From: Lacipirellula parvula
GTDB taxonomy: Bacteria > Planctomycetota > Planctomycetia > Pirellulales > Lacipirellulaceae
DNA length: 64,000 bases
Direction: 5' to 3'
Assembly: GCF_009177095.1 (NCBI RefSeq)
Contig: NZ_AP021861.1
Coordinates: 4,322,501 to 4,386,500 of the forward strand
This document shows positions 2,835-51,934 of this stretch, one piece after another. The notes beneath the pieces were generated by a model. That model worked only from the letters and a program-made list of their open reading frames with translations. It did not search any database and had not been told where the DNA came from. A program made the position numbers and the translations under genes. Positions within the stretch are counted from its first letter, which is position 1; every line of letters begins with the position of its first letter.

Positions 2835-3539
2835 TTATCGATTCTTTCCTCTGCAGAGTTCCGTCATTAATTCGACCTCCATTTGCTGAATCTCCATCAT
2901 TCGCTCCCATTGATGAGACATTAGTTCATCAAGCTTCACGTGAAGGTGTCGAATTTCCAGCTCTGCTTTGAGATTGATGCGGTAGTCGTGTTCAGCACGC
3001 ATCCGATCTCTCGCCTCCAGTCGGTTCTGGCTCATCATGATCACTGGCGCTTGGATCGCGGCGATGAAGGACAAAACAAGGTTTAATAAGATGAACGGGT
3101 AAGCGTCGAATGCCGACGTGCGAAGCACAATTGCATTAACGCCGATCCACATCGCCATGCCGCCAGTAAATAGAATTAAGAACGACCAACTGCCTCCGAA
3201 AGCAGCGAGCCGATCGGAGAGCCTGTCGCCCAGCGTTCGCTGTCCGATAAATTCGTCATCCACGTTCGCTGAAAGCAGTTCATGCTCACGCAGGCTATCG
3301 ACCACCTCCCGTTCCAGCGATGACAATTCGCCCCGTTCCGCGATTAGTGATTTTTCAATGTGCAGCGCTCGGTAAGTATTCAAATCTTCCAGGCAGATGA
3401 ACTGATCGGCACTCCATTGCGGATGCTCGACCTCAATAAGCGACGCAATGGGCGCTCTCACGAGATCTCCAGGCATCATCTGGGAAGACGGTTTCATCAG
3501 GCCGCACACGCCGCATTTCTTAAGCGAAGGGTAAGTCAT
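2835..3539 (-). CDS. DUF1003 membrane protein
   Basis: About 234 aa from the start at MTYPSLKK; an upstream start at 3581 would add 14 residues. The N terminus has a CGVCG pair that may form half a zinc site. The centre holds two transmembrane helices (SWSFLILFTGGMAMWIGVNAIVL and YPFILLNLVLSFIAAIQAPVIMM). The DUF1003 signature follows: MSQNRLEARDRMRAEHDYRINLKAELEI. The C-terminal 50 residues form a helix of the kind seen throughout the family. DUF1003 proteins are inner-membrane proteins of unknown function. It is convergent with the DUF4142 gene. Confidence 0.85.
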   Translation of the reverse strand: MTYPSLKKCGVCGLMKPSSQMMPGDLVRAPIASLIEVEHPQWSADQFICLEDLNTYRALHIEKSLIAERGELSSLEREVVDSLREHELLSANVDDEFIGQRTLGDRLSDRLAAFGGSWSFLILFTGGMAMWIGVNAIVLRTSAFDAYPFILLNLVLSFIAAIQAPVIMMSQNRLEARDRMRAEHDYRINLKAELEIRHLHVKLDELMSHQWERMMEIQQMEVELMTELCRGKNR

Positions 3540-3651
3540 AGCTGAGGCTTTCGGTTCGAGAAAGGAAGCGTGCGGCAGCAACGCAGGAGACTGATATGGT
3601 TAGATGTCCAAGTAGGATGACGGGCCTTCGCACTTTGACGTAACGACGCCA

Positions 3652-9239: not shown

Positions 9240-9301
9240 GGATTGCTTTTGCATTGCGATGCGTCGATGGTCTTCTCGCAACTCGCGAGGAAAATCGCAT
9301 C

Positions 9302-10573
9302 ATGGCATCGCTCGAAAAACGCGGAAGCGCTTACCGTGTCGTCTTCCGCTATGCTGGCATCAAGTACGCTCGTTCGCTCGAAACCAAAAGTGAGAAAGCT
9401 GCCCAAGCAGCGTTGGCTCGCCTGGAAGACAATCTCCATCGCCTGCAGCTCGGCACGTTGCAAGCGCCTGATCATGGCGACCTAGCCGGATTCCTGCTGG
9501 CCGACGGTCGCACTCATTCGATCGCTTTCTCAGTAGCCGTTCCATCGCAGACACCTGCTCCTACTGGACTGACGCTGGCTAGTCTCTTAGAACGATTTTG
9601 GACCAATCTTCCCGAAGGGAGCTTGGAGAAGTCAACAATTGCCGGGATGAAGATTCACCAAAGGCAGCTTGAAAAGCATTTTGGAAAAACTCTGTTCATT
9701 CAGTCACTCACCCTTTCGCAGCTCCAAGGCTACATCAAAGAGCGATCAAAAGACAAAGGTCTTCACGGCCGCCGAGTCAAATCTACGACGATTAAGAAAG
9801 CCATCGTCACGCTACGAACCGTCTGGAATTGGGGCCGCCAGCACGAATTGATTGAAAAGGAGTTTCCTTCGAGGGGGCTGAAGTATCCGAAAGGCGAAGA
9901 GAAATTGCCTTTCATGACGTTTGCTGAAGTTCAGAAACGCGTACTCAATGCATCTGTCGCCGAGGCTGCCGAACTTTGGGAATGCGCCTTTCTATCGACA
10001 CGCGAAATCAACGAGCTCTTGGAAAGAGTCAAGGCCTTTGGCAAGCAACCGGCGGTATACCCCATGTTTATGTTTGCGGCCCACACCGGCGCCAGACGAT
10101 CGGAGATGATTCGCTCGAAACTGACGGATATTGATTTTGTAGAAAACGTCATCACGATTCACGAGCGGAAGAGATCGCACGATAAAGTAACGACTCGCCG
10201 CGTTCCGATGTCTCCACCGCTCCGCGACGCTATGAAGAGTCTCGTGTCGTCGCACCCGGGGACAGGTTCGACATTCTGGCATCAGGCGTCGGCAACTCGC
10301 GGACACCGAATGGTCGCTCCCCAGCCGCTCGATGCCGATACCGCGCACGACTACTTTAAGCAAACACTAAGCGATACCAAATGGACTAAGCTGAGAGGTT
10401 GGCACGTTTTTCGCCACTCATTCTGCAGCAATGCAGCCGCAGCTGGCATTGATCAGCGAATCATTAATAGTTGGGTTGGCCACCAGACGGAAGAAATGGT
10501 TCAGCGTTATCGACACATGCTGCCCAACCATGAGCAGGCTGCCATTGCTCTGGTGTTTTCTGCCGCATCGTGA
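9302..10573 (+). CDS. Tyrosine integrase (island A)
   Basis: 423 aa from MASLEKRG. It is a site-specific tyrosine recombinase with an N-terminal AP2-like arm-binding region, a core-binding SAM-like domain (LASLLERFWTNLPEGSLEKSTIAGMKIHQRQLEKHFG), and a catalytic domain with Arg in HTGARRSEMI, the H-x-x-R box in WHVFRHSF, His in VGHQTEEM and the nucleophile Tyr in QRYRHM. All catalytic residues are present, so it is probably active. It sits next to the tRNA-Leu fragment and is the likely enzyme that inserted the 36.6-kb element. Confidence 0.93.
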   Translation: MASLEKRGSAYRVVFRYAGIKYARSLETKSEKAAQAALARLEDNLHRLQLGTLQAPDHGDLAGFLLADGRTHSIAFSVAVPSQTPAPTGLTLASLLERFWTNLPEGSLEKSTIAGMKIHQRQLEKHFGKTLFIQSLTLSQLQGYIKERSKDKGLHGRRVKSTTIKKAIVTLRTVWNWGRQHELIEKEFPSRGLKYPKGEEKLPFMTFAEVQKRVLNASVAEAAELWECAFLSTREINELLERVKAFGKQPAVYPMFMFAAHTGARRSEMIRSKLTDIDFVENVITIHERKRSHDKVTTRRVPMSPPLRDAMKSLVSSHPGTGSTFWHQASATRGHRMVAPQPLDADTAHDYFKQTLSDTKWTKLRGWHVFRHSFCSNAAAAGIDQRIINSWVGHQTEEMVQRYRHMLPNHEQAAIALVFSAAS

Positions 10574-13985: not shown

Positions 13986-14395
13986 TCGAGATAGCCATAT
14001 TTAGCTAGCCAGTCAGCGAGCGCTTCCTCGGCAATTTCTTGCTGTGTATCAGGCTTGGCGTCTTTCAATCTCTGTTCTAAGTGAGCTCGTCTCAGCGCCT
14101 GAGCAGTCCGGCGTGGGAGCCTAATCGTCACCGGCACAAGCATCTGATCGAGAACCTGAGTGGAACTTGGCGCCTCATGAGTGGAGCGCCTATTCCGCCG
14201 TTGTGGCCGCGGTGACGAGCCTTTATCAGCTTCTCCATTCTCGCTCGAAGGCGAAAGGTCTATCGTTTGGTTGGAAGCATCCTTTGCCGGAACCGGCGTC
14301 ATTGAAACCCCTGGCGGCTTCGATTGCCCACTAATGAACGCCCTCTTCTCCGGCGTCATTTCCATCGCCGCTCCAATTGATCTTCTCTCAGCCAT
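13982..14395 (-). CDS. ParB-like ribbon-helix-helix partition protein
   Basis: 137 aa, overlapping the upstream parA gene by 8 bp, so the two are translationally coupled. The N-terminal 75 residues are disordered and rich in Pro, Ser and Arg. The C terminus carries a ribbon-helix-helix DNA-binding segment: VPVTIRLPRRTAQALRRAHLEQRL, then QQEIAEEALADWLAKYGYL. This matches small centromere-binding partners of type Ib partition ATPases. It should bind a parS/centromere near the operon and stimulate ParA. Confidence 0.75.
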   Translation of the reverse strand: MAERRSIGAAMEMTPEKRAFISGQSKPPGVSMTPVPAKDASNQTIDLSPSSENGEADKGSSPRPQRRNRRSTHEAPSSTQVLDQMLVPVTIRLPRRTAQALRRAHLEQRLKDAKPDTQQEIAEEALADWLAKYGYLD

Positions 14396-15062
14396 TGCCT
14401 ACGCTCTGCCTCCCTGCATGTTGTTTCACTGCTACGATATCTCCCACAAGTTCGCGAAATAGTCCGTCGAGATCGGCGGCTGCCTGCGCACCTTTGCGGC
14501 CAAACCTTGCCACCACCGTCCCTTGTTGCGCCGCATCGCGATACGCTTGCAAATCGCGAACGACGTGCTGAGCGACCTGAAGTCCAAGCTGCGGAGCGCC
14601 CTCCTTCAGTTCTTGGCTAATCGTGTCCCGGGTCTTCATCTTGTTGAGCACAAGGCGTCCGTCGGGTTTGCCGCCGTTGATTCCCTGGGCGTATCGAAGG
14701 ACCGTGGTCGCCCCAGCGACCGACCTCACATCGAGAATCGAAGGCGAAATCGGGAAAATGGCCAGATCCGCGAGGATGAGCAAGGTACGACTCAAATCTT
14801 CCAGCCCACCTGGAGCGTCCCCTATCAAGAAATCGTGGCTAGAAACGAGTTCTTGGACGTTTACAAGGCATTCCTCAGGAGTGTCAGCGACGCGAACCGT
14901 GATTTTGGGCTCCGCTTCGACGATCCATTGCGAACTCGAACGCTGTTTGTCGGTGTCGAGTAACGCCGTTTGAAAGCCAAGGTCGAAGAGCCACACGGCA
15001 AGGTGCGTCGCGAGGGTGCTCTTGCCCACGCCGCCTTTGGAATTTGCGCAAACGATCATCAT
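14388..15062 (-). CDS. parA: ParA partition ATPase
   Basis: 224 aa, the size of a plasmid type Ib ParA without an N-terminal HTH. It has a deviant Walker A SKGGVGKST (residues 8-16), a Walker A' region ALLDTDKQRSSSQW, and Walker B-like FLIGDAPGG. It segregates plasmid copies by forming ATP-dependent gradients on the nucleoid. Being next to the iteron array and the initiator gene, it marks a complete plasmid backbone inside the island. Confidence 0.93.
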   Translation of the reverse strand: MMIVCANSKGGVGKSTLATHLAVWLFDLGFQTALLDTDKQRSSSQWIVEAEPKITVRVADTPEECLVNVQELVSSHDFLIGDAPGGLEDLSRTLLILADLAIFPISPSILDVRSVAGATTVLRYAQGINGGKPDGRLVLNKMKTRDTISQELKEGAPQLGLQVAQHVVRDLQAYRDAAQQGTVVARFGRKGAQAAADLDGLFRELVGDIVAVKQHAGRQSVGNG

Positions 15063-15613: not shown

Positions 15614-15726
15614 AAACGAGCGTAAGTGTTGGATAAAAAAAGGCTTTTCAAGGGTGTAACTCTTGTGTTAATAACTTTAAATAACTTGCAACAACAGAGG
15701 ACTGTTGCTGCTTGCTTTTAAAAGAA

Positions 15727-17163
15727 ATGATGGAAGATGCTCATCGCACTGAATCACTAGTCGCCAAGTCGCCGCTGCCATTCGACCTCGATGATGGACG
15801 TGATGAACTGAATCTCGCTGAATTCCCGCTGGCGGCAATCGCCGACCGCGTTCCCGACAATCAAAAAACGCTCGTCTTCGAAGATCGCATTTTCGATTCT
15901 GGTCGATCAGAAATGATCACGCGGCGGCTCACAATCTCAGCGTCCGACAAGTTCGGACTGCCGACTTCACTCGATGACGAAGTGATCCTCGGGCTCATTC
16001 AACTTACGAAGCAAAATCGCTTCACCGAACGAAAAGTGAACTTCAGTCGCTACCAACTCATCCAAATCTTGGGTTGGCGCCATGAAGGTCGGAGTTACGA
16101 TCGCCTGGAGAAGTCGCTCAAGCGCTGGCTTGGCGTTACGCTCTACTACGACAAGGCATGGTGGGATAAAGACGAGCAAACATGGGTTGACGAAAACTTT
16201 CACATCCTGGAGCAAGTCACGCTCTACGACCAGGAACGAAGGTTGAAGCGCTTACGCAGCAGCAACTCTGAGCCGCCACTTTCCTCATTCGCCTGGAACG
16301 AAGTTGTCTTTCGCAGTTTCAAGTCAGGATACTTGAAGGCGATCGACCTCGGGCTCTTTCGACAGCTTGAATACGCCGCGTCGAAACGGATGTACCGTTT
16401 TCTAGACAAGCGGTTCTATCACAAGTCCCGTTGGGAGTTCGATCTCGCAGAGTTTGCCTGCGAGCACATTGGCGTCAGCCGCAACTACGACACGGGGCAA
16501 CTGAAGCGTCGACTTCAGCCAGCGATCGATGAATTGGAAGCGGTGGGTTTCCTCGAAGCGATGCCGATAGCACAACGATACGTGAAGATCAGTCGCGGCC
16601 AATGGAAGATTGTCTTCATCAAGAAATCAGTTCCGCAAGTTGAGCTACTCGGCAAAGAAGAATCTCAATTGATTAAGAGACTAGCGGATCGCGGCGTGAC
16701 GCCATCCGTCGCGGCTGAACTTGTGCGAGAGTTTCCGGCCGAGTTGATCGAGATGCAGATGGAGGTGCTCGACCGCTTGCTTGAAAAGAAAGACCGCGAT
16801 TCGATCCGAAATCCGGCTGGGTACTTGGTCAAGTCGATTCGAGAAGGGTATGCTCCGCCCAAGAAGCAACTGCAAACGAAGCCTGTTGTCCTCACCGAGA
16901 CACCAAAAAATAGTTCGCCCATTGAGAAGGCGGCGCCTGATCAATCGGCAGTCGATGCTTACCTCATGGCATTAACGCCCACTGAACTCGCCCACCTCGA
17001 AGAGACGATGCTTGAGCATGTCGGAGCAACTCTTGCGGAAGGCTACCTAAGGTCCAAACAAGCGAAGAGCTCTGCCTTCTCGGTCTACCGCCGCATGGTA
17101 TTGGAGCGAGGCGCTAGGCAATTTCTTTCCACTCAGTGCAAAGCAGAAAAGTCCGCTGCATAG
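15727..17163 (+). CDS. repA: Replication initiator protein A
   Basis: About 478 aa from the first ATG pair; a TTG at 15,712 would add five residues. It matches the replication initiator protein A (RPA) family: winged-helix segments around LTKQNRFTERKVNFSRYQLIQILGW, SYDRLEKSLKRWLGVTLYYDKAWW and YLKAIDLGLFRQLEYAASKRMYRFLDKRFY, followed by ISRGQWKIVFIKK. The C-terminal 170 residues are helical and include NPAGYLVKSIREGYAPP, typical of plasmid initiators. It should bind the iterons just upstream. A 5'-truncated paralogue lies at 47,764-48,462. Confidence 0.88.
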   Translation: MMEDAHRTESLVAKSPLPFDLDDGRDELNLAEFPLAAIADRVPDNQKTLVFEDRIFDSGRSEMITRRLTISASDKFGLPTSLDDEVILGLIQLTKQNRFTERKVNFSRYQLIQILGWRHEGRSYDRLEKSLKRWLGVTLYYDKAWWDKDEQTWVDENFHILEQVTLYDQERRLKRLRSSNSEPPLSSFAWNEVVFRSFKSGYLKAIDLGLFRQLEYAASKRMYRFLDKRFYHKSRWEFDLAEFACEHIGVSRNYDTGQLKRRLQPAIDELEAVGFLEAMPIAQRYVKISRGQWKIVFIKKSVPQVELLGKEESQLIKRLADRGVTPSVAAELVREFPAELIEMQMEVLDRLLEKKDRDSIRNPAGYLVKSIREGYAPPKKQLQTKPVVLTETPKNSSPIEKAAPDQSAVDAYLMALTPTELAHLEETMLEHVGATLAEGYLRSKQAKSSAFSVYRRMVLERGARQFLSTQCKAEKSAA

Positions 17164-18980: not shown

Positions 18981-19021
18981 TAATTCCTCCACATTATTTA
19001 TACGTTAAATGAACCGAGAAT

Positions 19022-19148
19022 CGGCTCTGCGTGCCGCCATCCGCGGCGAGTCAAGGTGGAGCCTTTGCGCAGCAAAGCAGCAGCGAGACTTCCCGGTGCG
19101 CTCCGACGAGCGGACCTTGACCGCTGCGGCACAATCAAAACAGAGCCG
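19022..19148. other. Nested long-range inverted repeats
   Basis: Three helices nest exactly: 19,022-29 with 19,141-48 (CGGCTCTG), 19,032-37 with 19,126-31 (TGCCGC), and 19,051-57 with 19,114-20 (TCAAGGT). The element lies between the coiled-coil gene (minus) and the promoter of the giant RNA (plus). It could be the leader of the coiled-coil gene or a separate RNA domain; the strand cannot be decided. Confidence 0.55.
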
Positions 19149-19190
19149 AAGAAGGTTTGACTAGCCGGAGAAGCGACTGCCTGGGAGGAT

Positions 19191-19219
19191 TTGATTAGGG
19201 GCAGTTTGCGTGTTATACG
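19191..19219 (+). promoter_or_regulatory. Probable promoter of the giant RNA
   Basis: TTGATT, a 17-bp spacer and TATACG give a good sigma-70-like match. The predicted start (about 19,226) falls just before the first stem (GGGAAACC with GGTTTTCCC) and before the part conserved with copy B. Confidence 0.5.
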
Positions 19220-19225
19220 GACACT

Positions 19226-20710
19226 CAGGGAAACCAGGATAGGTTTTCCCGACTGTCGATGTTCGTAAACGCTTTGGCAGCAGTTATCCGTCTGGAGAAC
19301 GCATCCGTTTAGCCTGGTCACCAACCAGGCCAAGGAGAGGGGATTTACCATCCCTCACGCGTTCTGCCGGTAGCGCTGAGTGCATGGAGACATGCTCGCT
19401 CAGTGCGAAGGAGGCTTGATGAAGTAATCTCGAAATCGCTCGCTGCCTTTGTATGGCAGCGATGACGCTCGAAGTAATCTCATCATTCTATCCTATAGTT
19501 CAATGTTCTTTTCTCGCCCCGATGCGGGGCGATACGGAAATTCTCTGACAGAAGTTCTGGTCAGAGCCGTCAGTATTCAAAGTCGGTGCGGCTGCATTGT
19601 TGCAGCCAAATCCACACGCGGGGTTCGCTTCCTCTAGGAAGGGGCGTTCAACGTTGTCCGGCGTCGGGAGCCACGAGCCTCGCAAGAGGCCGTGTCGGGG
19701 GAGTGACGTCCTTCGAGTACACCAGTAAGTCTGGTGACGTGAAAAGCTCAACGATGAAAGGCGGGTAACCGCTTGCCGGTAAATGTTTCGAAAGTCGATT
19801 GCCGAGATTCTCGGTCACTCGCGATAGCGAAGGGCCGAGGGGGACAAGTGGATGATTCACACGGTAGGGGGAGCTTCTAGACTCGTACCCCGGAAATCGC
19901 CGGGCACGAAAGTGCCAGGTGGAAAGTAGGACGGCCTGGCGGCCGCACCTAGAATCGTTCGCCATGAGGGTCACACCTCTCACCCACGAGATTCGAAACA
20001 TGAAGGTACTGACTAACGTAGGAATCGCCGTCGAGGCCGGTTGGTAACCGGTGCCAAGGCTCGTCGCCTTGGTGCTTCAAATTCGACGGCGAGGGAGCGG
20101 GTCGCAAGTAGAGAGCCGGAGGCTCAAGCACGCGGGAGCGTGCGAGAGGTCCAGGCGGTGGTCGAGACGAAGGTCTCGAGCTGTCAGTCGGTGGAACCGA
20201 CTGGCGGTCATGGCAAGGCAGTCATGACCCGTGCTCGCTTGGGGGTGGTACCCCAAGCATGAGAGCCGACGAAAGCGACGACTGGCTTACTAAGCCAGAC
20301 GGATAACTGTGCCGGAGGACCTCCATGTGGAGGCCTCCGGCGGTCCTTGGTTGGAAGCATGGTGGTCAAACGAGTTCTCTTCGGGAGAAGAGAAGTCTTT
20401 TGGCAGCGAATTGGCGGTGGACAGGCGACGTGTGCTTTGCACACGACGGTTTTTCACCGAGGTGTTTAGCAACACGGTTAGCATGAAATTGGGCGGGCTG
20501 CTGCTAAGAGTTTAGTAGCAGCCCGCGAATCGAATGCGGCTGCGTGGCATGGAAGGTTCGCAAAAATCGAAGGCAAGGTTTTAGCTTCGAGGTTTTGCGA
20601 AGTCACCTACTTGGCGTGAGGCGAGAACGATGGACAGTTCCGCAGCATTCGCCAAGCTGATTTTCGCATGAGTGTTTTTCTCCGGGCAAGCAAGAAGCTT
20701 GCCCCTTTTT
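19226..20710 (+). ncRNA. Giant structured RNA, copy A
   Basis: About 1.48 kb without a credible gene but packed with stem-loops, several capped by GNRA loops on this strand (GCAA, GAAA, GTAA, GGGA). A second copy at about 50,471 keeps loop sequences while helices covary. Examples are 19,312-19,330 (loop TCACCA), 19,514-19,532, 19,543-19,566 (loop AGAAGTTCT, all seven pairs changed), 20,054-20,072 and 20,206-20,229 (loop GCAAGGCAGT). It starts after a promoter-like site, ends at an intrinsic terminator, and is followed by a basic protein gene. Size and complexity recall GOLLD, ROOL or OLE RNAs, but I cannot assign it to any of them. The ends are approximate. Confidence 0.88.
20684..20710 (+). 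terminator. Intrinsic terminator of the giant RNA
   Basis: GGGCAAGC (20,684-20,691), loop AAGAA, GCTTGCCC (20,697-20,704), then C and five T. It is a strong terminator placed 45 bp before the next start codon. Confidence 0.85.
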
Positions 20711-20746
20711 ATGACGGCTTGCAGTTTGAGTCGTCATGAAAAGGGG
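20702..20746 (+). promoter_or_regulatory. RBS-sequestering hairpin overlapping the terminator
   Basis: A continuous 15-bp helix pairs 20,702-20,716 with 20,732-20,746 (one G-U pair). Its 5' arm uses the last bases and T-run of the terminator; its 3' arm contains the AAGGGG ribosome-binding site of the next gene. Terminator and hairpin cannot both form completely. Readthrough transcripts would hide the ribosome-binding site unless something opens the helix. Confidence 0.65.
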
Positions 20747-20754
20747 GACTAGAA

Positions 20755-21453
20755 ATGAGGAAGGAACCATACAAGTACGAGACGACTTCGGTCACGGGAT
20801 TCGTGCAACGAATCGCGACGTGCCTGCTGAGGCATGGATACGTTCACTACGTTCAAGGGACGGTCGGCGAAGGGAAGGATTCTCGGGCAATCGACAAGAA
20901 GCTGCTTGAGAAGTACGACGTCATACAGAGCGAGTGGACTCGAGCCCGCCGCAAAGAGAGGGGGCTCGCAAACCTTCAGTACGTCAGGTTCGACCGAACT
21001 TGGGTGCTGATGGCCACCGAGGGGAGTCACCCAATGAAGTCGGCTGAGCAGTCTCAGCTTCGCGACATCCGCGAAGCTCCGATTCAGATTGAGGGATATT
21101 CCATCTATCTGAAGAGGGGGGATTTCAAAAAGAGAAGGTCGAAGGACGACGCTCCGGTGCGTGACGACAAGTTTCACGCCCGCGTGCTCATCTCCCGGGA
21201 GCGGTACGCAGAACTGCGGGCTTACTTTCTGTCCATTGCGTGTCACCGGACAGCCGCGCGGCTGGCAGTAGAAATAAACGGCTTGCCGTTTGAACCTTAC
21301 AAGCCGGTCTGGCGTCAGCTCAGAAAGATTGTTCGCTTGGTAAATAAGAGGCGAAAGGCAGCCGGTTTCGACCAGGTGCTGATGGACTCGGTCCGCTGGA
21401 GGAGGAATATCGTGAAGGCGTTTGAACCACTAGAGGTTGACCGGGCGGCTTAG
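20755..21453 (+). CDS. Basic protein associated with the giant RNA
   Basis: 232 aa, start fixed by AAGGGGG seven bases upstream. It is strongly basic (RARRKERGL, KRGDFKKRRSK, RQLRKIVRLVNKRRKAAG), with no membrane segment. Landmarks are GYVHYVQG, DKKLLEKYDV, ANLQYVRFDRTWVLMATEGSH, IRDIREAPIQIEGYSIYLKRG and LPFEPYKPVWRQLRKIVRLVNKRRKAAGF. A homologue follows RNA copy B (51,423-51,890), sharing ATxGxH, GYS and LPFEPYxPVxxQL. The linkage and charge suggest that it binds the RNA. I know no functional assignment. Confidence 0.85.
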   Translation: MRKEPYKYETTSVTGFVQRIATCLLRHGYVHYVQGTVGEGKDSRAIDKKLLEKYDVIQSEWTRARRKERGLANLQYVRFDRTWVLMATEGSHPMKSAEQSQLRDIREAPIQIEGYSIYLKRGDFKKRRSKDDAPVRDDKFHARVLISRERYAELRAYFLSIACHRTAARLAVEINGLPFEPYKPVWRQLRKIVRLVNKRRKAAGFDQVLMDSVRWRRNIVKAFEPLEVDRAA

Positions 21454-23348: not shown

Positions 23349-24203
23349 CTAAGCGATCGCCAGCACAACAGAGCGGACGCAATTCATGTCAGGCTCATCG
23401 ATGTCCGTCGACGCGACGACAGAGATGATCTGCATGGAAACCCGCTGAATGTGATCGAGCGATTGCATGAGTAGTTCCCTATCACCGGAGTAGAGCTGGA
23501 TGTAGTCGGCCGAATGGCTGACGGCATCAAGCCCTGCAGTGCGGCAGACGATGAATGCGACTGCTTCTGCTTCCAGTTCACGAACCTTCCGAGTCGTTTC
23601 CTTTCGTCGTTCGCCGCGGTGGAGCAGTTCGTGAGCGAGTTCGTGGGCAGTGACCAAGAATTCTTCGGCTGGTTCCAGACCGTTTAGAATTTCAATCTTG
23701 CCTCCATGGGAAGCGCCGTGAGCCCCGCCGAGTGAATCGGCGAACTCCAAGGCGATCTCCAAGTCACTTACGTAGCGCTGGAGCCTCCTGAGCTTTTCAC
23801 CGGGCTGGCCGTGAATTCGGCTAAACTCCGGCAACTCAGCTCCCTCTGTTTGAGCCACGTCAAAGACGTGTGCGACCCGAAAGCCGCGAACGATAGGGGA
23901 TGATTGCTCGTCGTCGTTGTCAACATCTTTCTTTTGCCGATAGACAAGCGGAGCCAAAATCATCAGCCCTTTTTCGCCCTTTTTGACGTACCTGCCGAGC
24001 TGCTTCCAGCGAGCGAAGCCAGCAACTATTCTTGCCGTGGGTTTTTGCATCGCAATTAATAAGCAGTTCCGAAAGCTGTAGTGGTAAAAGCGGGCTTGAA
24101 ATTCAAGGAACTGAATCAACGTGTCGCTGCGACCTTGTTCAAGGGCCTTGATCAACTCGTCGATCCCCACCTCTACATGTTTCAACGCTTCATCACTTTT
24201 CAT
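23349..24203 (-). CDS. ArdC-like antirestriction protein
   Basis: 284 aa; GGAGGAAG lies just upstream of the start. The N-terminal ArdC ssDNA-binding domain reads FLEFQARFYHYSFRNCLLIAMQKPTARIVAGFARWKQLGRYVKKGEKGLMILAP. The C-terminal zinc metallopeptidase domain has TAHELAHELLHRGERR with the HExxH-type motif (HELAH) and a downstream Glu in ELEAEAVAFIVCR. ArdC-type proteins protect incoming plasmid DNA from host restriction and occur on conjugative elements. This supports mobility of island A, although no relaxase is in the window. Confidence 0.9.
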   Translation of the reverse strand: MKSDEALKHVEVGIDELIKALEQGRSDTLIQFLEFQARFYHYSFRNCLLIAMQKPTARIVAGFARWKQLGRYVKKGEKGLMILAPLVYRQKKDVDNDDEQSSPIVRGFRVAHVFDVAQTEGAELPEFSRIHGQPGEKLRRLQRYVSDLEIALEFADSLGGAHGASHGGKIEILNGLEPAEEFLVTAHELAHELLHRGERRKETTRKVRELEAEAVAFIVCRTAGLDAVSHSADYIQLYSGDRELLMQSLDHIQRVSMQIISVVASTDIDEPDMNCVRSVVLAIA

Positions 24204-25296: not shown

Positions 25297-25576
25297 AGCA
25301 CACTGTGCCACAACACAGAGTCTTACTCAAATTGCCCATCTCAAGCATTCGCCGCTAGACGAGTGCGGCATTGCGTTGGTTGTCGCTCGTCTTGATTGAC
25401 AGACTCTCGCTGTAACGAAGCTTCGACAAACGGCCGCTTCCCCTGCCCGAAAATGCCTTGTTGCTCGTTAATGATAAAATCTGTTATCCTCGGCAAAAAG
25501 GGGATTGAGATGGAGTTTGAATAAGGCTCACCCGGACCGACTTTTGCCTGGTCCGGTGCAAGTTGCCACGGGGCGC

Positions 25577-26674
25577 ATGACGAAGGAGAAAGAGGAACTC
25601 ATCAGATTGATCGACGCCGGAACGCTGGTCGTTCCCGGCAGTGAGTTGGATCCTGAGCGGCTGCCGCCGATTCTCATTGGCCAGTTGACTCCGGCGACGC
25701 AGCGACGCGTCGAACAATTTTATTTTTCGGTGGCGTCGATCCTGGAGGCATGGATCAAGCGCCGCACAAGTCGGCATACGCAGCGGGCTTACCGGCAAGA
25801 TCTCGATGCTTTTATTGAGCGTCTGAAACTTGACTGGCCACGGCACGCCACAGAGCTGCTGACTGTCTCGGTCGCAGATGTCCGCGCGTGGCGAGATGAT
25901 CTTATGACGCAAGGCATGGCGCCCAAAACGCTCAATCGGCGTATCTCGTCGGTTTCAAGCTTCTACAGGTACCTCCAAGCGGTCGCCGCCGAAATGCGTC
26001 TGCCCATCGTTGTTCCTAATCCGGCGCATGCTCAGTTCATTGGCCGCGGCTCACAGGATCCGGTCGATGAGACCAAAGCCCTTACGGCGACGCGAGCCAG
26101 GCAGTTGATGGGGCTGCCGCAGGGCGACGAGGTCATCGCTTATCGCGACCGGGCGATTTTGAGGTTTTGTCTTTATGCGGGCGTTCGCATCGGGACGGTG
26201 TGCCGGGTACGGGCTCAGGACTTTCAGATTGAGGGCGATGAGGCGACGATTCGGATTGCCGAGAAAGGCGACAAGCGCCGGACGATCGGGATTCACTTTG
26301 CTGCAGCAGAGGCGATTGGCGAGTACATGAAGAAAGCCGGTATCGAATCGGGGCCCCTCTTTCGACCCCGTAATGGCCCGACAAGCTTGACTCTAGCGAC
26401 TCGGTCGATGAACGAATCGTCAATGTATCTGCTCATCAGGAGTTACCTAGAGCGGCTGCCGGGCGCGATGCGCACCGAAGCTGACGGCAAGAAACATTGT
26501 CTTTACTCCCCTCACTCGCTCAGGGCAACGACTGCCACGCTGCTGCTAGAAGCAGGCGTCGACATTCGCAAGGTTCAAGAGTTGCTTGGGCATCGGCATG
26601 TGACGACGACTCAGGTTTACGACAAACGACGCCGGACGACGAAGGAGTCTGCGAGCCATGACGTGCCGATTTAG
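25577..26674 (+). CDS. XerC/D-like tyrosine recombinase
   Basis: About 365 aa from MTKEKEELIR. It has a core-binding domain (RRTSRHTQRAYRQDLDAFIERL, TLNRRISSVSSFYRYLQ) and a catalytic domain with Arg in CLYAGVRIGTV, Lys in AEKGDKRRTIGI, H-x-x-R in SPHSLRATTATLLLEAG, and LGHRHVTTTQVYDK with the final Tyr. The organisation is closer to XerC/D than to island integrases, so it may resolve plasmid dimers or move a sub-element. It marks the border between the plasmid backbone (9-26 kb) and the cargo region (26-45 kb). Confidence 0.9.
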   Translation: MTKEKEELIRLIDAGTLVVPGSELDPERLPPILIGQLTPATQRRVEQFYFSVASILEAWIKRRTSRHTQRAYRQDLDAFIERLKLDWPRHATELLTVSVADVRAWRDDLMTQGMAPKTLNRRISSVSSFYRYLQAVAAEMRLPIVVPNPAHAQFIGRGSQDPVDETKALTATRARQLMGLPQGDEVIAYRDRAILRFCLYAGVRIGTVCRVRAQDFQIEGDEATIRIAEKGDKRRTIGIHFAAAEAIGEYMKKAGIESGPLFRPRNGPTSLTLATRSMNESSMYLLIRSYLERLPGAMRTEADGKKHCLYSPHSLRATTATLLLEAGVDIRKVQELLGHRHVTTTQVYDKRRRTTKESASHDVPI

Positions 26675-38651: not shown

Positions 38652-41600
38652 CTAGACTTGACTGCTGGTCCGAGAACTGCTTGGCCGCCAACGCCAGTCA
38701 ACACGATCGAGCTGTCCTCGTACCGCATCAGATGACTCCGGAAGACCACACCGGAGGCGTATAGCATGCCACTGAGATGTTTCGATTTCATACTTGACTA
38801 CATCGGCCTCGATCTTATCGAAAAGTCGGCGCAGAATAAGCCGAATGTCAGAATCGTATCCACTGTTAGTCAAACCTTCAGTTGCATGTGATACCGCCGC
38901 CTCCAGGACCCCCAGAGACACAGCACTTTTCCCCTTCGCGTCATAGTTGAGAACAAATTTCTGGTAATGAGCAGCAGCTGATAGGTAATAAAAGTAAACT
39001 CGCCATTTACTCTCGACCCTTCCCCTCGCAAGAATTGATTCCGCTTGCTCCAGATAGCGTATGATCTCTGTAAGGGATGCGTATGCCGCGTCGTCAACGC
39101 CACCATCCAGGAACTTATCTCTGGAATTCATCCACTTAAGCAATCTCCACTCAGCGTCCATTAACATTGCAGTGGACTCCAGCGTCATGTCGTCCGGACA
39201 GAACGGTTGATGTAAGCAAGCCCTGGCCCTGGAAAATTCGACAGCCGAAAAGCATCCGACGTCACCGCCACCTCCGCTAAGTTCACGAGAATTCTGATGC
39301 CTCGTGGGAGAAACGAAGTCGTCGGCACCGTCGAGCTCGAGATAAGCAATCGCGACGCCATGCAAAGTGTGTAAATAGCTACGGACTCGCCTGGCACGCT
39401 GCTGTGATGAGAAAGTGCCTAGCAAACGTCCTAACTCATCGCAATCCCTTGCAATTCTCACCACCTCCCTCTGTGAGCTAAGCGATTTTGACTGCAATGG
39501 GGTACCGCAAAGCCAACCATAACGCGGATTTGCCACATGGACTTCTAATGCCAAGTGTAATTCCCTGGCTTTTATGTACATGCCAGCTAAGTCCATATCG
39601 CGTGATCCATTACGCGATTCGCGACCGACTGCCCCTTTGGCAGCATTGAGCACTACTTTCTCTGCAGCTCGTCGTCTGCGACGACACTCAATGCTATTAA
39701 TCCAGACATACTTGGATCTCTTTTTGATCCAACAATTTTCAACCGCACCTGCTAGAAGAAACGGCTCGTGTAATGCGACTGTCGACTTGACCAAGCACCA
39801 CAGTGTGCGCTCTGCAGTTTTGCGATTCGCCGCATCGCCAGAACTCAATCCATCGCGCACCAGCTGTATTAGTTGCTTTGCAACCTTTTTGTGTGCGGCA
39901 GACATCGTGCACGAGTGGCATGCACAAGTACGGCGGTTATTCGCAGGCCGCGCGTCCTCCAGCTTGAGCGTTGTTATAAACAACTCATCAAACGTGCTTA
40001 AATTCCCGCTTAGTTCCGAGCACGCTGAACTGAGTTCCACAAAAAGGTAGCGGAGAGCGTAGCGAGAGTGCCCCGCTGTTAGGAGCATTTGTGAATAATG
40101 TGCTAGTAAATCCCTCAGGGATTCTCTCACTTCAACATGCAGCGGCTGAAGGTCGCCTAAATCTTTGAACCGATTATATAGACTACTGTCGATGGTTCTA
40201 AGAATTCTTATTGCTTGCCCCAATTCGCAGAGCAACTCGGCAACTTTTCCATGTGAATGTAAGTGGTCGCTTTCCGCCTTCAGAGAACTAAGCAGTGCTC
40301 GCAGCGGACCGAGATAGTTCGTTTCCGGCGCCTCCTCGACTTCTTCAATATCCCACTCTTCTTTTTCCTTAGCACGCTCGAACGCCCAAGCAATCGAAGC
40401 TACGCTGTAGTATACAAACTCGCAAAACGCCGCGGTATCACGTGACTTATCGTAGACGTCTTCTTTTGCAAAACGTGCTATCTCGAGCGCGAGGCGAATT
40501 TTCTGCGGCGCTAACAGATCCCTCACAGCTTTCGCTTTTGAGAGTGCCGCCTTCTCAGAGGTATGATTTGTTGCCCCAAAGAAATAGTTGTAGATGCTCG
40601 CCTTCGTGCTCGCATGCATCCAATAAAATCCGCCTTCCAGTCGCGACAAAAGATGCCAGTCATTGTGCATACAACCTTCGGCTACGCTTAGGCCCATCGC
40701 TGCACTTGCGAAATACCTCTGCCCGAAAGTCGCTTCTAGCTGACGGTCTCCGTCTGCTCTCACGTCCCTACATGCTCTGCCACCAGCAAAGTCCTGCCAA
40801 TCCGCTTGCCGCAACACTGTGACGGCAACTACTAGCAACGCGGTACGGCTACGCGGCCTGCGAAACAAACTGGCAAGGACGAGAATAAGCCCTGCAACAG
40901 GGCAATCTGACTCAAGCTGTTCATTTACAATTTTTAGTGCCGTTTCTCCCCGCGATTCCTCCTCGCGATCCCTGTCTGAGATCATGGTGACATGTGTAGA
41001 AAGGGACGGACCACAGATGCGACTGAGCATTGCGTACAGGGCTGATGGATCTGCGCTTGGATCGTCGCTACGAATCAGATTAGTATCACTCGAACTACCA
41101 CCCTGGCCGGTGGAATTGCTTGCCTTGGTGAACGGCGTAATTGCACAAGCAACAATTGACGTACCGAACGTATGCGACTCTTGCCTGATGCGGCTAAGTA
41201 GATTCAGAAGCCGCGATCGCTGTACGTCAATGCGACATTCACTTACCCTCATTAACGGCAGGTAGCGAGGAAAGGCGAACTCACCGATCGAATCAATGCT
41301 CAGCAGCACATTACTTCGGCGTAGTGCTCGTGCTAGCCACCGAACGGCTATTGTGCTTTCCCACCCCTCCTCTTCCTCCAAAAGCTTTTCATGGTCTACG
41401 GTAACATGCGTCCACTCCTCCTCCACTGCGCTCGCTTCGTCCAACGCGCGCTCCTTACAAACCATTTCTTTTCTTTCGATCGCCTCGATTTCAAACATGT
41501 CAACGTCACGCAGCATAAGCGGTCGGTGAAGAGAGTGTATCCCTCTGTCTGTTCGGGATAGATCGTCGACAATCCGCGATAGCAACGCGGCCCGAGTAGC

Positions 41601-42974
41601 TATATCTGACGCATCAATCCATACGCTTTCGTGCGATTTAAACTCGTCTGTATCATTAGCGTTCACATTCAAAGCAGTGGATGTCCCCCGACCTTCCTGC
41701 ACAGCTGCGAAAATTCTAAAGCGTGATAGGAGGATGGTCTTGAACGATCTGTTCTTGATGTCTTCTACAATGTGACGCTCTAGGGAACGCGGGGCGGTAG
41801 GTAGTGCTCTGTACGAAGTGCGGCTAACGGCATACTCATGTGAGAGATACTGATACAATTCTTGAAAGAATAACTGAGCATCACGATACTGAACGCTAGC
41901 CGCTGGTTTTGGAGCGGTCGCATTATCGCTATGCCCTGTCGACATTAGCGGTTGCACGGCGTCCCGCAGCTGATTGGGAATGCTTCCGCTTCGAGTAACC
42001 CATAAAACCCTGGTAGGATCGCCCAATGGGCTATCCCGCCAGCGGGAGATATGATCTGAAATGACGTCCATTACGCGCCGATCACTTCCACTGTAGCCAA
42101 CGACGACTACCAATGCCCCAGTCTCGCCGCCCTTAACACCATCAATAAAACGATCTTCCAAGCATCCTCTCATCGTATCCATTGCCGCGATAGGAAGCGG
42201 TTCATCGAGGTCATACCCGGTTCGGAGGCCGTGTGTCCCACCGTGCAGTTTCATTAGTGAGAGCGCTTGACTTCGCACTAATCGCGGGCTCGGCAATGAG
42301 CCTTCCCTGCTAACCTCGTAAACAGTTGGTGACAGGCCCTCCGCGCGTAACGCTTCTTCAATTAGCGGATCGAAGTTCGTCGTAAGGATCAGATCGATGC
42401 CGAGCTTCTCAACAACGAAGCAGATAAACTGGTGAGTCGCTGACGGGCGGCGCCCCCTTACAAAATGGTCGAAGAAAGCGTCGACAAGTGAATCATCATA
42501 ACTGGCTGCTGAGTTGAGAAGAGAGCGGTAGTCGGTGTAACTAACTTTGGAGAAATCCAAGCCTTTTATGTAAGCTTCGGACATCCGTGCATATAATGGC
42601 GCCACGCGAACCAACTCTGCGCCGATACCCTCGGCATACGCCTTTGCCCGTTCCTCATTCATGGCCAATCGCATCGACTCGAGACCTCCGCCCGCCTGCT
42701 GCGAGATCCACTCTGCCCATACATCATGGCGATGCGGCCATCCAAACGTACGTACGAATTCTCGTAGGTTTTCGAACCCCCTACGCCGTGATACAACTCG
42801 CAAAGCGACAAGATAGTCGCAAAGAGTTATCGAAATTGGTATGCCGGCGTCAATCGAGATCCCCGATCCAAGGAGAAGTACGACTCGCTGCTTGCGGGCT
42901 CTAGCATTCTCGATCATCCTAAATGCTTCTTCGGGAGTATACGATATGACCGTTTCCATATTGCCATCCTGCAT
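38652..42974 (-). CDS. Giant SIR2-domain protein, STAND-like defence candidate
   Basis: 1,440 aa. The N-terminal SIR2-type NADase domain has LLGSGISIDAGIP (residues 34-46), TTNFDPLIE (198-206), the catalytic His region LMKLHGGTHG (240-249) and VVVVGYSGSD (289-298). The next 250 residues sit where a STAND NTPase would be, but the P-loop is only a remnant (EGRGTST, 427-433, no Lys), with a Walker B-like LLSIDSIGEF (557-566). Residues about 650-1,400 are helical and TPR-like, with a possible zinc knuckle CACHSC. The build recalls SIR2 Avs/NLR-like antiphage proteins that deplete NAD on sensing phage. Confidence 0.82.
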   Translation of the reverse strand: MQDGNMETVISYTPEEAFRMIENARARKQRVVLLLGSGISIDAGIPISITLCDYLVALRVVSRRRGFENLREFVRTFGWPHRHDVWAEWISQQAGGGLESMRLAMNEERAKAYAEGIGAELVRVAPLYARMSEAYIKGLDFSKVSYTDYRSLLNSAASYDDSLVDAFFDHFVRGRRPSATHQFICFVVEKLGIDLILTTNFDPLIEEALRAEGLSPTVYEVSREGSLPSPRLVRSQALSLMKLHGGTHGLRTGYDLDEPLPIAAMDTMRGCLEDRFIDGVKGGETGALVVVVGYSGSDRRVMDVISDHISRWRDSPLGDPTRVLWVTRSGSIPNQLRDAVQPLMSTGHSDNATAPKPAASVQYRDAQLFFQELYQYLSHEYAVSRTSYRALPTAPRSLERHIVEDIKNRSFKTILLSRFRIFAAVQEGRGTSTALNVNANDTDEFKSHESVWIDASDIATRAALLSRIVDDLSRTDRGIHSLHRPLMLRDVDMFEIEAIERKEMVCKERALDEASAVEEEWTHVTVDHEKLLEEEEGWESTIAVRWLARALRRSNVLLSIDSIGEFAFPRYLPLMRVSECRIDVQRSRLLNLLSRIRQESHTFGTSIVACAITPFTKASNSTGQGGSSSDTNLIRSDDPSADPSALYAMLSRICGPSLSTHVTMISDRDREEESRGETALKIVNEQLESDCPVAGLILVLASLFRRPRSRTALLVVAVTVLRQADWQDFAGGRACRDVRADGDRQLEATFGQRYFASAAMGLSVAEGCMHNDWHLLSRLEGGFYWMHASTKASIYNYFFGATNHTSEKAALSKAKAVRDLLAPQKIRLALEIARFAKEDVYDKSRDTAAFCEFVYYSVASIAWAFERAKEKEEWDIEEVEEAPETNYLGPLRALLSSLKAESDHLHSHGKVAELLCELGQAIRILRTIDSSLYNRFKDLGDLQPLHVEVRESLRDLLAHYSQMLLTAGHSRYALRYLFVELSSACSELSGNLSTFDELFITTLKLEDARPANNRRTCACHSCTMSAAHKKVAKQLIQLVRDGLSSGDAANRKTAERTLWCLVKSTVALHEPFLLAGAVENCWIKKRSKYVWINSIECRRRRRAAEKVVLNAAKGAVGRESRNGSRDMDLAGMYIKARELHLALEVHVANPRYGWLCGTPLQSKSLSSQREVVRIARDCDELGRLLGTFSSQQRARRVRSYLHTLHGVAIAYLELDGADDFVSPTRHQNSRELSGGGGDVGCFSAVEFSRARACLHQPFCPDDMTLESTAMLMDAEWRLLKWMNSRDKFLDGGVDDAAYASLTEIIRYLEQAESILARGRVESKWRVYFYYLSAAAHYQKFVLNYDAKGKSAVSLGVLEAAVSHATEGLTNSGYDSDIRLILRRLFDKIEADVVKYEIETSQWHAIRLRCGLPESSDAVRGQLDRVDWRWRPSSSRTSSQV

Positions 42975-50092: not shown

Positions 50093-50470
50093 AGCGGGCG
50101 TCTCCGGAGCGGAATGGAAAAGATGGAGTCGCGGTCACTATAGCGATGCGCGAAACGAATAGCGATATTTTCCCCATCGAAATGTCTCAAACGATCTTTA
50201 CTTAGCCGAACGCCTCCTCTATTTCCCAGGATAGCCTCCGATTAGCCCCTTCCGCCGTCGCCGTCGCATCGGCCCTCACCCTGGCTGGGGCCGATGCGAT
50301 GGCAGAGGCGGCAGGGGCGCGCCCCTTTTGTCGAACCCGAGTGGAGGTTCTCAGCACGTCAAACTGCATTTGTTTAGTGCGTAAAACCATGATATAGATC
50401 CGCTCTTAGAGAAGCGGTCGGATCGCTTCCCGGTCGTTAAACGTTCATGTAGCTTTGATTGCCCCTTCCG
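50093..50470. other. Spacer with perfect hairpin 50,266-50,297
   Basis: No gene is recognised. A perfect 10-bp inverted repeat (GCATCGGCCC/GGGCCGATGC) with a 12-nt loop lies in the middle, followed at about 50,313 by GGGGC/GCCCC and TTTT, which could stop plus-strand transcription before the RNA copy. Confidence 0.4.
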
Positions 50471-51419
50471 TTTTGCAGACGCTCCCGTTTAATCAGCCTC
50501 ACCAGCTGATTAAGGAGACGGACCTTACCAGTCGTCGCGAGTCTGAGCTGTAGAGCTGGGTTGCATCGAGAGGTGCTCGCCCTGTTCGACGGAGGCTCCT
50601 CCGAGTAATCTCGAATTGTCGACGCTGCCTTTGTATGGCAGCGACCGACGTCGAAGTAATCCGGTAGGTTCTATCCGATAGAGACGAAAGTCTTATCTTT
50701 CTGTCGCCCAAACTGTGGGCGATGCGGAAAACCCTTGGAAGAAGTTCTGTCCAAGGCCGTCATGTTTCAAAGTCGGTGCGGTTGCAGTCTCCTGCGTAGG
50801 AGACTTGCGACTTAATCCGCCCACGGGGTTCGGGCCTCTCTTGAGGTTCGCTCAACGTGCGCCGCCGTAGGGAGCCGGCATGTCCGCGAGGGCAGCCGCC
50901 GGTCGGTGACTCGACCGGGGACTTGGGGCAAATCCTCAAGCCGCGAATAGCTCAACTACGAAAGGCCCATCAGAAGGGCTTGGCGGTCAGTCGATGAGGG
51001 AGTCGTTGCCAAGCATGTCAGCAAGTTTCGATAGAAACTCGCTTATGACGAACGATCCTGGCTTATGGGTAAGGGGAAGTTTCTACGTTTTGTCCCCTGA
51101 AATGAGGAACGACGAGTTCCTTGAAACTATGCTCGCCTGACGGCGAGACATAAAGCCTTTGTTGATCTAGCAGGCTAATCCCTGCTAGTCACGAGACCCT
51201 CGTTGAAGAGGAACATGGCTAACGCAGGATCTGCTCTGGCCGCCGGGTTGGTATCCGGTGCGCAGCTTCGTCGGCTGCGTGATTGAAACGCCAGTGCAGG
51301 GGAGTGTGGCCTCAGTAGGAGTTTGCAACGCTAGTCGCGGGAGCGACCAGCGGAGCAGAGCGAGTGTTCGGGCAAGGCAGTCCGAGCTCGTTCAAGCGCA
51401 TCCGGGTGGTGCCGAGCGC
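50471..51419 (+). ncRNA. Giant structured RNA, copy B (3' truncated)
   Basis: Homologous to copy A from ACGC-CCGTTTA (50,479 here, 19,299 there) to the GGCAAGGCAGT loop and GTGGT loop (about 51,371-51,410). Helices with changed pairs but kept loops include 50,491-50,511, 50,704-50,722, 50,733-50,756 (loop AGAAGTTCT), 51,260-51,280 and 51,367-51,386. The last 450 nt of copy A, including terminator and RBS hairpin, are missing: the RNA sequence runs directly into the interior of the associated protein gene. Confidence 0.82.
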
Positions 51420-51422
51420 GAT

Positions 51423-51890
51423 GACTTTGAGCGAGACTGGCTGATCGTGGCGACTCACGGGACGCATCGATTCTTCCTGGAAGAAGGAACAGCAGTGAAG
51501 GATGTGCGGAAGCACCCCATCCACTTTGCCGGTTACTCGCTGACTATGAGGCGAGGGGAGTTCTTGAAGAAGGAGTCGGGAGCTGCCGAGGCTGAGCCTG
51601 ACGGTAGGTATCGCGTTCGAGTTCAAATCGCTCGCGAACAACTGCGAATGCTGAAGCCCTATCTCATCGAGCTCTCGACAAGACGAAGCGCTGAATGGAT
51701 TGCCAGGGGGCTTTGGAATCTCCCCTTTGAACCCTACGCGCCTGTTAGGAAGCAACTATTGGCGTTGTTGCGGATGATCAATTCACGGCGTCAGGCAGCA
51801 GGTCAGTCAAAACTGCCGGCGAGCGTTCTTCGCATGAAGCGGGACATCGTCAAGCCGTTCGGGGAAGGTGATGAGGCTTTGGCCGCCTGA
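51423..51890 (+). pseudogene. 5'-truncated RNA-associated basic protein gene
   Basis: About 155 codons align with residues about 78-232 of the 20,755 protein: FERDWLIVATHGTHRFF, VKDVRKHPIHFAGYSLTMRRGEF, YRVRVQIAREQLRMLKPYLIELSTRRSAEWI, LPFEPYAPVRKQLLALLRMINSRRQAAG and MKRDIVKPF. The first third of the gene and its start are lost in the deletion that also removed the RNA 3' end. The frame is open upstream through RNA sequence, but that part is not protein-like. Confidence 0.78.
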
Positions 51891-51934
51891 AGATCGAAGA
51901 AGAAATGGCGGAGTGGGCGCTGCGGGGACGAGGC

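Follow-up and report, generated by a model that had tools for sequence, protein, structure and literature searches.

A probable circularly permuted group II ribozyme of a planctomycete branch, encoded upstream of acpG in Lacipirellula parvula

Introduction

What is the long, highly structured stretch that occupies positions 19,226-20,710 of the DNA analyzed here, where no convincing gene is found and open reading frames of 117 aa occur on the minus strand only? The window, a stretch of 64,000 nucleotides, covers bases 4,322,501-4,386,500 of the 6.92-Mb single-contig genome of Lacipirellula parvula. A first-pass annotation made from the letters had described the region as a giant structured RNA with a second copy near 50.5 kb and had been unable to match it to GOLLD, ROOL, OLE or an intron. 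Our analysis indicates that the element at 19,297-20,407 (copy A) is very probably a circularly permuted (CP) group II ribozyme with the domain order D5-D6-linker-D1-D2-D3-D4, followed by the partner gene acpG. The sequence-based case for this identity is made by the domain order, the splice-site motifs, covariation, an EBS1-IBS1 pairing, a P2-D2 pseudoknot and membership of the downstream protein in the AcpG family. Copy A thus represents a planctomycete branch of a known class and not a new class of RNA.

According to the main text of Roth et al. 2021 (PMC8637638), CP group II ribozymes are RNAs of ~900 nt with this same domain order, in which a 3′ splice site NU is followed 15-86 nt later by a 5′ splice site GGGCG; they share a P2-D2 pseudoknot, frequently neighbor acpG, and in vitro release a small RNA circle, with a branched RNA as the other product. 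That text reports same-strand, divergent and convergent arrangements of acpG relative to the RNA, as well as CP RNAs that lack acpG, and cautions that being neighbors need not imply that RNA and protein physically interact. It also gives D4 as the site of the genes for intron-encoded proteins (IEPs) in ordinary group II introns. No role is given there for the CP ribozymes, and no homology of AcpG to any known class was detected (PMC8637638).

Results

Domain layout of copy A

At curated cut-offs the sole Rfam match in the whole window was RF00029, the group II intron family, whose model covers D5-D6; it aligned to 19,371-19,496 with 44.1 bits against a cut-off of 40, and the same family was found at the corresponding place in three of seven related loci scanned. 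Rfam includes GOLLD, ROOL and OLE families, and none of these matched, either in the window at gathering thresholds or at E ≤ 5 within 19,000-21,000 and 50,200-52,000. The earlier failure to find a counterpart therefore holds for the three large RNAs and fails for introns: the first-pass annotation had proposed an Rfam search and had named a hit to a known family as evidence against its reading, and RF00029 is such a hit. Together with the domain order and the splice-site signals described below, this match replaces the picture of an unassigned giant RNA.

The RF00029 match sits at the 5′ end of the copy A RNA. In ordinary group II introns, D5 and D6 lie at the 3′ end. The canonical intron layout, D1 to D6 in order with splice sites at the ends, is absent from copy A, and D5 and D6 are found upstream of D1-D4, the arrangement that defines the CP class (Table 1). 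The D5 triad reads CGC in copy A and in four other rows of a 24-row alignment and AGC in the remaining 19, including copy B and a third copy, C. The putative branch-point adenosine of D6, A19,490, is unpaired in the Rfam alignment, lies 7 nt from the 3′ splice site and is invariant across the 24 rows. The exact limits of D1-D4 are inferred, as are expression, catalysis and circle release for copy A. The terminator-like hairpin that precedes acpG is a consensus match only, with four such sites found against 1.8 expected.

Table 1. Coordinates of the RNA copies, their parts and neighboring genes within the window
Feature	Coordinates	Strand	Remarks
Tyrosine recombinase	9,254-10,573	+	beside copy A
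ParA-like ATPase	14,388-15,062	-	beside copy A
RepA replication initiator	15,712-17,163	+	PF10134; beside copy A
5′ hairpin domain (P1/P2 region)	19,297-19,364	+	helix 19,297-19,302/19,359-19,364, by eye
P2 hairpin	19,340-19,354	+	loop TTACC, 19,345-19,349, complementary to D2 loop GGTAA, 20,043-20,047
Domain 5, catalytic hairpin	19,373-19,406	+	GAGA loop, TCG bulge; RF00029 44.1 bits, covariation
Domain 6	19,409-19,496	+	paired AGTAATC internal loop; putative branch A19,490
Linker between splice sites	19,497-19,526	+	predicted 30-nt RNA circle; IBS1 is last 7 nt, 19,520-19,526
Domain 1 (putative limits)	19,527-20,020	+	opens with 5′ splice-site motif GGGCGA; covarying helices
EBS1	19,879-19,885	+	loop of D1 hairpin 19,867-19,871/19,887-19,892
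Domain 2 (putative assignment)	20,025-20,092	+	helices including 20,025-20,034/20,083-20,092; P2-pairing loop 20,041-20,047
Domain 3 (putative assignment)	20,101-20,279	+	helix 20,101-20,105/20,275-20,279, 180/180 cells paired
Domain 4-like 17-bp hairpin (putative assignment)	20,362-20,407	+	3′ end of conserved core
Terminator-like hairpin with T run	20,684-20,710	+	hairpin 20,684-20,704; between RNA and acpG
acpG, 232 aa	20,755-21,453	+	AcpG family; group II RT-like predicted fold
ArdC-type anti-restriction domain	23,349-24,203	-	beside copy A
Tyrosine recombinase	25,505-26,674	+	beside copy A
Copy B of the RNA	50,472-51,420	+	truncated inside D3; D5 from 50,553, putative branch A50,673
Copy B linker, putative circle	50,680-50,716	+	5′ splice site 50,717, EBS1 51,085-51,091
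ORF with acpG remnant	51,258-51,890	+	homology starts near its residue 56; N-terminus lost

Covariation and extent of the core

In the 24-row alignment, whose structure was written by hand from those rows and the Rfam D5-D6 model, 97.8% of 647 cells over the 27 pairs of D5-D6 are paired. Double-sided changes occur at 21 of the 27 pairs, in 159 cells compared with 36 in shuffles; none of 500 shuffles reached the observed value, and every slid version scored far lower. A second alignment of 36 longer rows, with a mean pairwise identity of 56%, was drawn from 47 matches to a covariance model (R1, below) after omission of near-duplicates, copy B, loci with short flanks, one long locus and the cyanobacterial rows. 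It contains 187 core pairs that are 95.2% paired, a percentage favored because the consensus was predicted from the same alignment; the contrast with shuffles is nonetheless large, with double changes at 157 of the 187 pairs and 1,620 double-change cells compared with 445 (0/200 shuffles). The D4-like hairpin alone contributes double changes at 16 pairs, with 526 of 597 cells paired.

These data bear out the central observation of the first-pass annotation, that a long structured RNA is encoded on the plus strand, is related to the copy near 50.5 kb and has compensated helices. Several particulars need revision. For the stem at 19,543-19,566, all seven pairs had been said to differ between copies A and B; compensated double changes were found at four, and three are identical. 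The proposed helix at 19,514 consists of linker bases that pair with the 5′ splice site GGGCGA itself. The size of ~1.4-1.5 kb was overstated, the conserved core measuring ~1.1 kb (19,297-20,407, with the 5′ limit set by eye). Conservation across the 36 rows is clear to ~20,410 only, with means of 0.51 for 20,411-20,540 and 0.33 for 20,541-20,683.

Splice sites and long-range pairings

The splice sites of copy A are inverted, with ...CTATCCTAT preceding the linker and GGGCGA following it; across the linker the sequence reads ...TCTATCCTAT / AGTTCAATGTTCTTTTCTCGCCCCGATGCG (19,497-19,526) / GGGCGATACGG.... The motifs are CTATCC-AT at the 3′ splice site and GGGCGA at the 5′ splice site, the latter present in 36/36 aligned rows, which were picked by a model that includes it. 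Linkers measure 30, 37 and 19 nt in copies A, B and C, respectively, and that of Leptolyngbya, at 12 nt, falls just under the published range of 15-86 nt. A GUGYG-like alternative for the 5′ splice site, GTGCGG at ~19,585, is absent in some relatives (copy C, for example, has GGTGAGCGG) and was rejected because GGGCGA occurs in every aligned row and is the published CP motif.

A single-pair scan followed by a 7-nt diagonal test located EBS1 at 19,879-19,885. The 7 nt preceding GGGCGA (IBS1) pair with it at 74.6% of positions, compared with 61.8% (sd 2.2) in permuted controls; of 910 positions this one scores highest (z 6.7, runner-up 4.4), and none of 2000 permutations reached the observed value, a count uncorrected for the 910 positions because the site was chosen after the scan. 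Four of the seven pairs form in copy A and one of seven in each of two other loci (L051 and L061). An EBS search that required complete 4-6-nt matches in 60% or more of the loci gave no candidate. The loops of P2 and D2 offer at least four Watson-Crick bases in 31/36 loci, with a mean pairing of 4.72 compared with 3.81 after permutation (maximum of 100 permutations, 4.11).

As a separate observation, the linker of copy A contains TCGCCC (19,514-19,519), complementary to the 5′ splice site GGGCGA. The pairing spans 19,514-19,532 in copy A and 50,704-50,722 in copy B and is lacking in copy C; it might possibly act as an on/off control that masks the 5′ splice site.

Copies and genomic setting

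The relationship between copies A and B stands, but copy B is incomplete: it ends within D3, joining acpG directly at about codon 78, and so lacks the 3′ strand of D3, D4 and the N-terminus of AcpG. The loss is a deletion that fused the RNA with the gene. Copy C is full-length with a full acpG and lies on the minus strand ~60 kb before the window (G000:C1:4262473). The three copies of this genome fall within 111 kb; two genomes of the genus have three copies each. Upstream of copy B, at 50,244-50,319, is a long inverted repeat (GCCCCTTCCGCC...GGCGGCAGGGGC) with Rfam matches below cut-off only.

The genes around copy A (Table 1) give its neighborhood the look of an integrated plasmid or similar element, a setting that agrees with the plasmid association of the CP class. 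Elsewhere in the window, 38,652-42,974 on the minus strand encodes a possible defense protein of 1440 aa, in which a SIR2-like domain was recognized (PF13289, E 7e-7).

Relatives and distribution

Model R1, a covariance model of D5-D6-linker-5′ splice site built from the 24 rows, was trained on no proteobacterial or Thermus sequences. It scores 128.7 bits on copy A and 115.0 bits on copy B, finds three places in its own genome and gives 71-140 bits on planctomycete rows. Of 15 proteobacterial or Thermus plasmid loci outside the training set, R1 matched nine, among them the published pPNAP05 RNA (48.6 bits, E 2.8e-11); the others include plasmids of Azotobacter, Burkholderia, Sulfuriferula, Paraburkholderia, E. 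coli, Gluconacetobacter and Pandoraea. Scores on the proteobacterial plasmids were 28.9-52.1 bits, and the Thermus brockianus relative reached only 20.6 bits. At E up to 10 the model did not report the remaining six loci, namely the published pTT8 RNA (L004) and L011, L012, L014, L016 and L017, these being two other Thermus loci, Gluconobacter, Novacetimonas and a second stretch of pPNAP05. The pTT8 RNA, matched by motifs only, has the same splice-site signals as copy A, as do the proteobacterial RNAs including that of pPNAP05; by eye, the blocks ATAGCTCAAGCGTGTAA, CTTTGGAATCTCG, CTAACGTGGGAATC and GGGAGAGTGGATCAGTAG are common to copy A and at least one proteobacterial RNA.

A tblastn search with the downstream protein returned nine plasmid records, and the first four plasmid loci opened had 1.4-1.8 kb without a listed gene upstream of the homologue. 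An acpG homologue is present on E. coli plasmids of 28-36 kb (10 records); in one (L020) a CP group II-like RNA at 2477-2589 on the minus strand lies divergently beside the homologue at 2887-3579 on the plus strand.

Scanning of 84,980 species genomes revealed 46 acpG loci, mostly in Planctomycetota; in seven of them the DNA upstream of the gene is shorter than 1.2 kb. At 34 of the other 39, R1 finds the RNA just upstream of acpG on the same strand; 15 of these were in the training set, and therefore 19/24 untrained loci match, some of them (e.g., L067 and L038) near-duplicates of trained rows. Five loci with enough upstream DNA (L035, L039, L042, L054 and L060) gave no R1 match upstream of acpG. 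In a sample of 392 genomes of the phylum, acpG was found in eight, all with the RNA upstream and co-oriented, and R1 reached at least 71 bits in nine, including all eight. Eleven genomes of the phylum gave weak R1 matches only, at 30-43 bits, which may be either CP or canonical introns. No relative was found in phages, nor among 54 pattern matches in the viral_contigs set.

Three further loci merit description. A CP group II match of 117.8 bits (G278:C18:43894-44046, L105) lies in a genome with no match to the AcpG profile. Seven weak R1 matches of 30-41 bits in another genome (G389; L112, L121-L126) are canonical introns or divergent CP copies. In plasmid5 of Calothrix sp. NIES-4101 (L007), two CP group II copies lie on the same strand at 636-769 and 2787-2911, ~2.1 kb apart, the second directly before acpG.

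Could the RNA be a cis-regulatory leader that controls AcpG expression together with the terminator-like hairpin, its ribozyme activity being incidental or a switch? The position of that hairpin at 20,684 and the co-oriented RNA directly upstream of acpG at 34/39 loci are as such a leader would have them. However, wherever R1 matched a proteobacterial plasmid or Thermus brockianus, the RNA lies on the opposite strand, divergent from acpG, many loci have no T runs before acpG, and the splice-site pairing is conserved. We consider such a leader improbable and favor the CP ribozyme.

Far less probable still, and in our judgment barely tenable, is that copy A is an ordinary group II intron or the degenerate remnant of one, its domain order having arisen by chance. 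Its D5-D6 do match the group II family model, and related genomes hold canonical group II introns, the GIIM domain occurring in 18/59. Against this, no GIIM domain was found in the genome of L. parvula, and D5-D6 precede the GGGCGA/D1 part in 36/36 aligned rows, with inverted and conserved splice sites. At 12 loci with canonical group II intron proteins, R1 scored 15.0-24.3 bits in seven and gave no match in five, well apart from its planctomycete scores; none of these stretches, taken from related genomes, exceeded 3.2 kb, and some may stop short of D5-D6. Compensated changes that persist across 36 divergent rows argue against a decaying fragment.

The AcpG protein

Sequence-profile comparison places the ORF at 20,755-21,453 in the AcpG family. 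The planctomycete/cyanobacterial set aligned with a proteobacterial set that includes the pPNAP05 protein (hhalign, 99.0%, E 3.8e-18), and the latter with Thermus TTHC007 and its relatives (98.6%, E 8.9e-16); the direct profile comparison of planctomycete/cyanobacterial with Thermus sequences gave 75.6% and E 2.4e-5, and direct BLASTP to TTHC007 was not significant (E 0.082). No Pfam or NCBIfam family matched AcpG above cut-off.

Confident AlphaFold2 models were obtained for AcpG (P0001; 40 sequences, pLDDT 92.2) and for a Fimbriimonadaceae AcpG that is 37% identical (L066; 31 sequences, pLDDT 96.5); the two are not independent because the alignment for L066 is a subset of that for P0001. The top VIA-align 2 row for both was the group II reverse transcriptase (RT) 8h2h_D, with Z 9.9 over 206 residues (rmsd 5.0) for P0001 and Z 9.6 over 181/201 residues (rmsd 3.9) for L066. 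Other group II RTs, G2L4, DRT9, Prp8 (Z up to 8.5), retrons and telomerase came next, and in the best 50 rows for L066 the first protein outside RT-type proteins, telomerases and RdRps was a GGDEF domain at Z 4.9. These Z values are to be read against a caution given with the tool: where Foldseek has no clear match, the best Z of a model is typically 7 to 8. The order of secondary structure in AcpG (strand, two helices, beta hairpin, strands, three helices) is one that we take to fit a palm followed by a thumb.

The same resemblance might instead reflect a common alpha/beta arrangement in a protein that does not derive from an RT, a reading we hold to be somewhat unlikely. The sequence and fold searches leave room for it: hhalign of AcpG against 11 group II RTs gave E 0.12 and a probability of 0.5%, with 2/100 column-shuffled controls as high; Foldseek alone returned nothing at E ≤ 0.001 (best E 4.5e-3), nor did it against viral models; a PDB sequence search yielded two proteins, both weakly matched (E 0.097 and 0.54) and neither of them an RT; and VIA-align 2 only re-ranks the 1000 best chains of Foldseek. 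What counts against it is that the top rows of both models are group II RTs, RT-like DRT9/G2L4 and Prp8, that nearly the whole of L066 aligns to the top row, with a wide gap to the first protein of another kind among the best 50, and that the order of strands and helices presumably matches palm and thumb. The weak hhalign alignment also covers the part expected from the fold, namely the FLGF strand and the first helix of the thumb.

At the putative motif C (YLRYERFFLLLAT in the copy C protein, compared with VRYADDF), no conserved acidic pair was found in 58 AcpG sequences; with the register placed by prediction, D or E occurs at residues 78-82 in 1, 0, 19, 1 and 2 of them, and the catalytic YxDD of IEPs is absent. 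Because the predicted fold is RT-like and the acidic pair is not conserved, we propose, at about even odds, that AcpG is a fingerless, catalytically dead relative of group II RTs/maturases that forms a permuted intron RNP with the CP ribozyme.

Discussion

By analogy with the reactions of the class in vitro described by Roth et al., the bulged A19,490 would attack the phosphate before G19,527, and the linker, its 3′ end now free but kept in place by IBS1-EBS1 pairing, would use that end to attack after T19,496, releasing 19,497-19,526 as a 30-nt RNA circle and leaving a T-shaped branched RNA in which A19,490 is joined 2′-5′ to G19,527. AcpG may be a reduced, catalytically dead group II RT serving as maturase of the CP RNA, and the RNA-AcpG RNP may belong to elements of the plasmid type, in this case to an integrated element that has RepA and ParA. 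The permutation break would fall in D4, exactly where an ordinary intron has its protein gene, and the RNA-then-acpG order of planctomycetes and cyanobacteria would preserve the relation between D4 and that gene. In a manner like that of Prp8, AcpG could scaffold a group II core no longer serving mobility, with plasmids retaining the RNP to make branched RNA and tiny circles. Our best guess is that the functional product is an AcpG-bound branched RNP acting for the plasmid-like element.

If AcpG is indeed a shrunken, dead maturase, the spliceosome would no longer be the sole natural instance of a group II core kept together with an inactive RT in a role other than retro-mobility; the CP ribozyme with AcpG would be the second. 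What helps CP ribozymes in cells would then become directly testable, and the 36-row alignment, the EBS1-IBS1 pairing and the co-oriented arrangement lead to concrete constructs and mutations. A search of titles and abstract starts, with subscription journals outside its coverage, found no later literature on AcpG among the entries listed.

Copy A resembles the published CP class, the "T-large" RNA (PMC8637638), in its domain order, GGGCG and NU motifs, linker range, P2-D2 pseudoknot and EBS/IBS pairing, as well as in its acpG neighbor and plasmid association. It departs from the class in having a CGC instead of an AGC triad, in ~350 variable nt between its core and acpG and, by eye, in a D6 longer than that of pPNAP05. 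Planctomycetota and Cyanobacteria, the hosts found here, are not named in the main text of Roth et al. (PMC8637638), so the members in these phyla are apparently new relative to that text. The constancy with which acpG is co-oriented and directly downstream in these two phyla, wherever both are found, is apparently new as well; co-orientation as such is not, because same-strand orders are among those that Roth et al. report.

The downstream protein and the AcpG/TTHC007 family of Roth et al. are the same family by profile-profile comparison and have the same RNA partner; unlike that study, whose main text detected no homology, we find two predicted structures that resemble group II intron RTs (PMC8637638). 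AcpG shares with group II IEPs a predicted palm-plus-thumb order and fold, a group II ribozyme as partner and a gene placed after D4. It differs from them in length (232 aa, compared with 387-599 residues in the top group II chains of VIA-align), in the absence of evident fingers or a DNA-binding part as separate units, in lacking a conserved catalytic Asp pair and in having no Pfam match. Prp8 is an inactive RT-like protein that lies beside the group II-like RNA core of the spliceosome. Prp8 is eukaryotic and far larger than AcpG, whose predicted fold it resembles.
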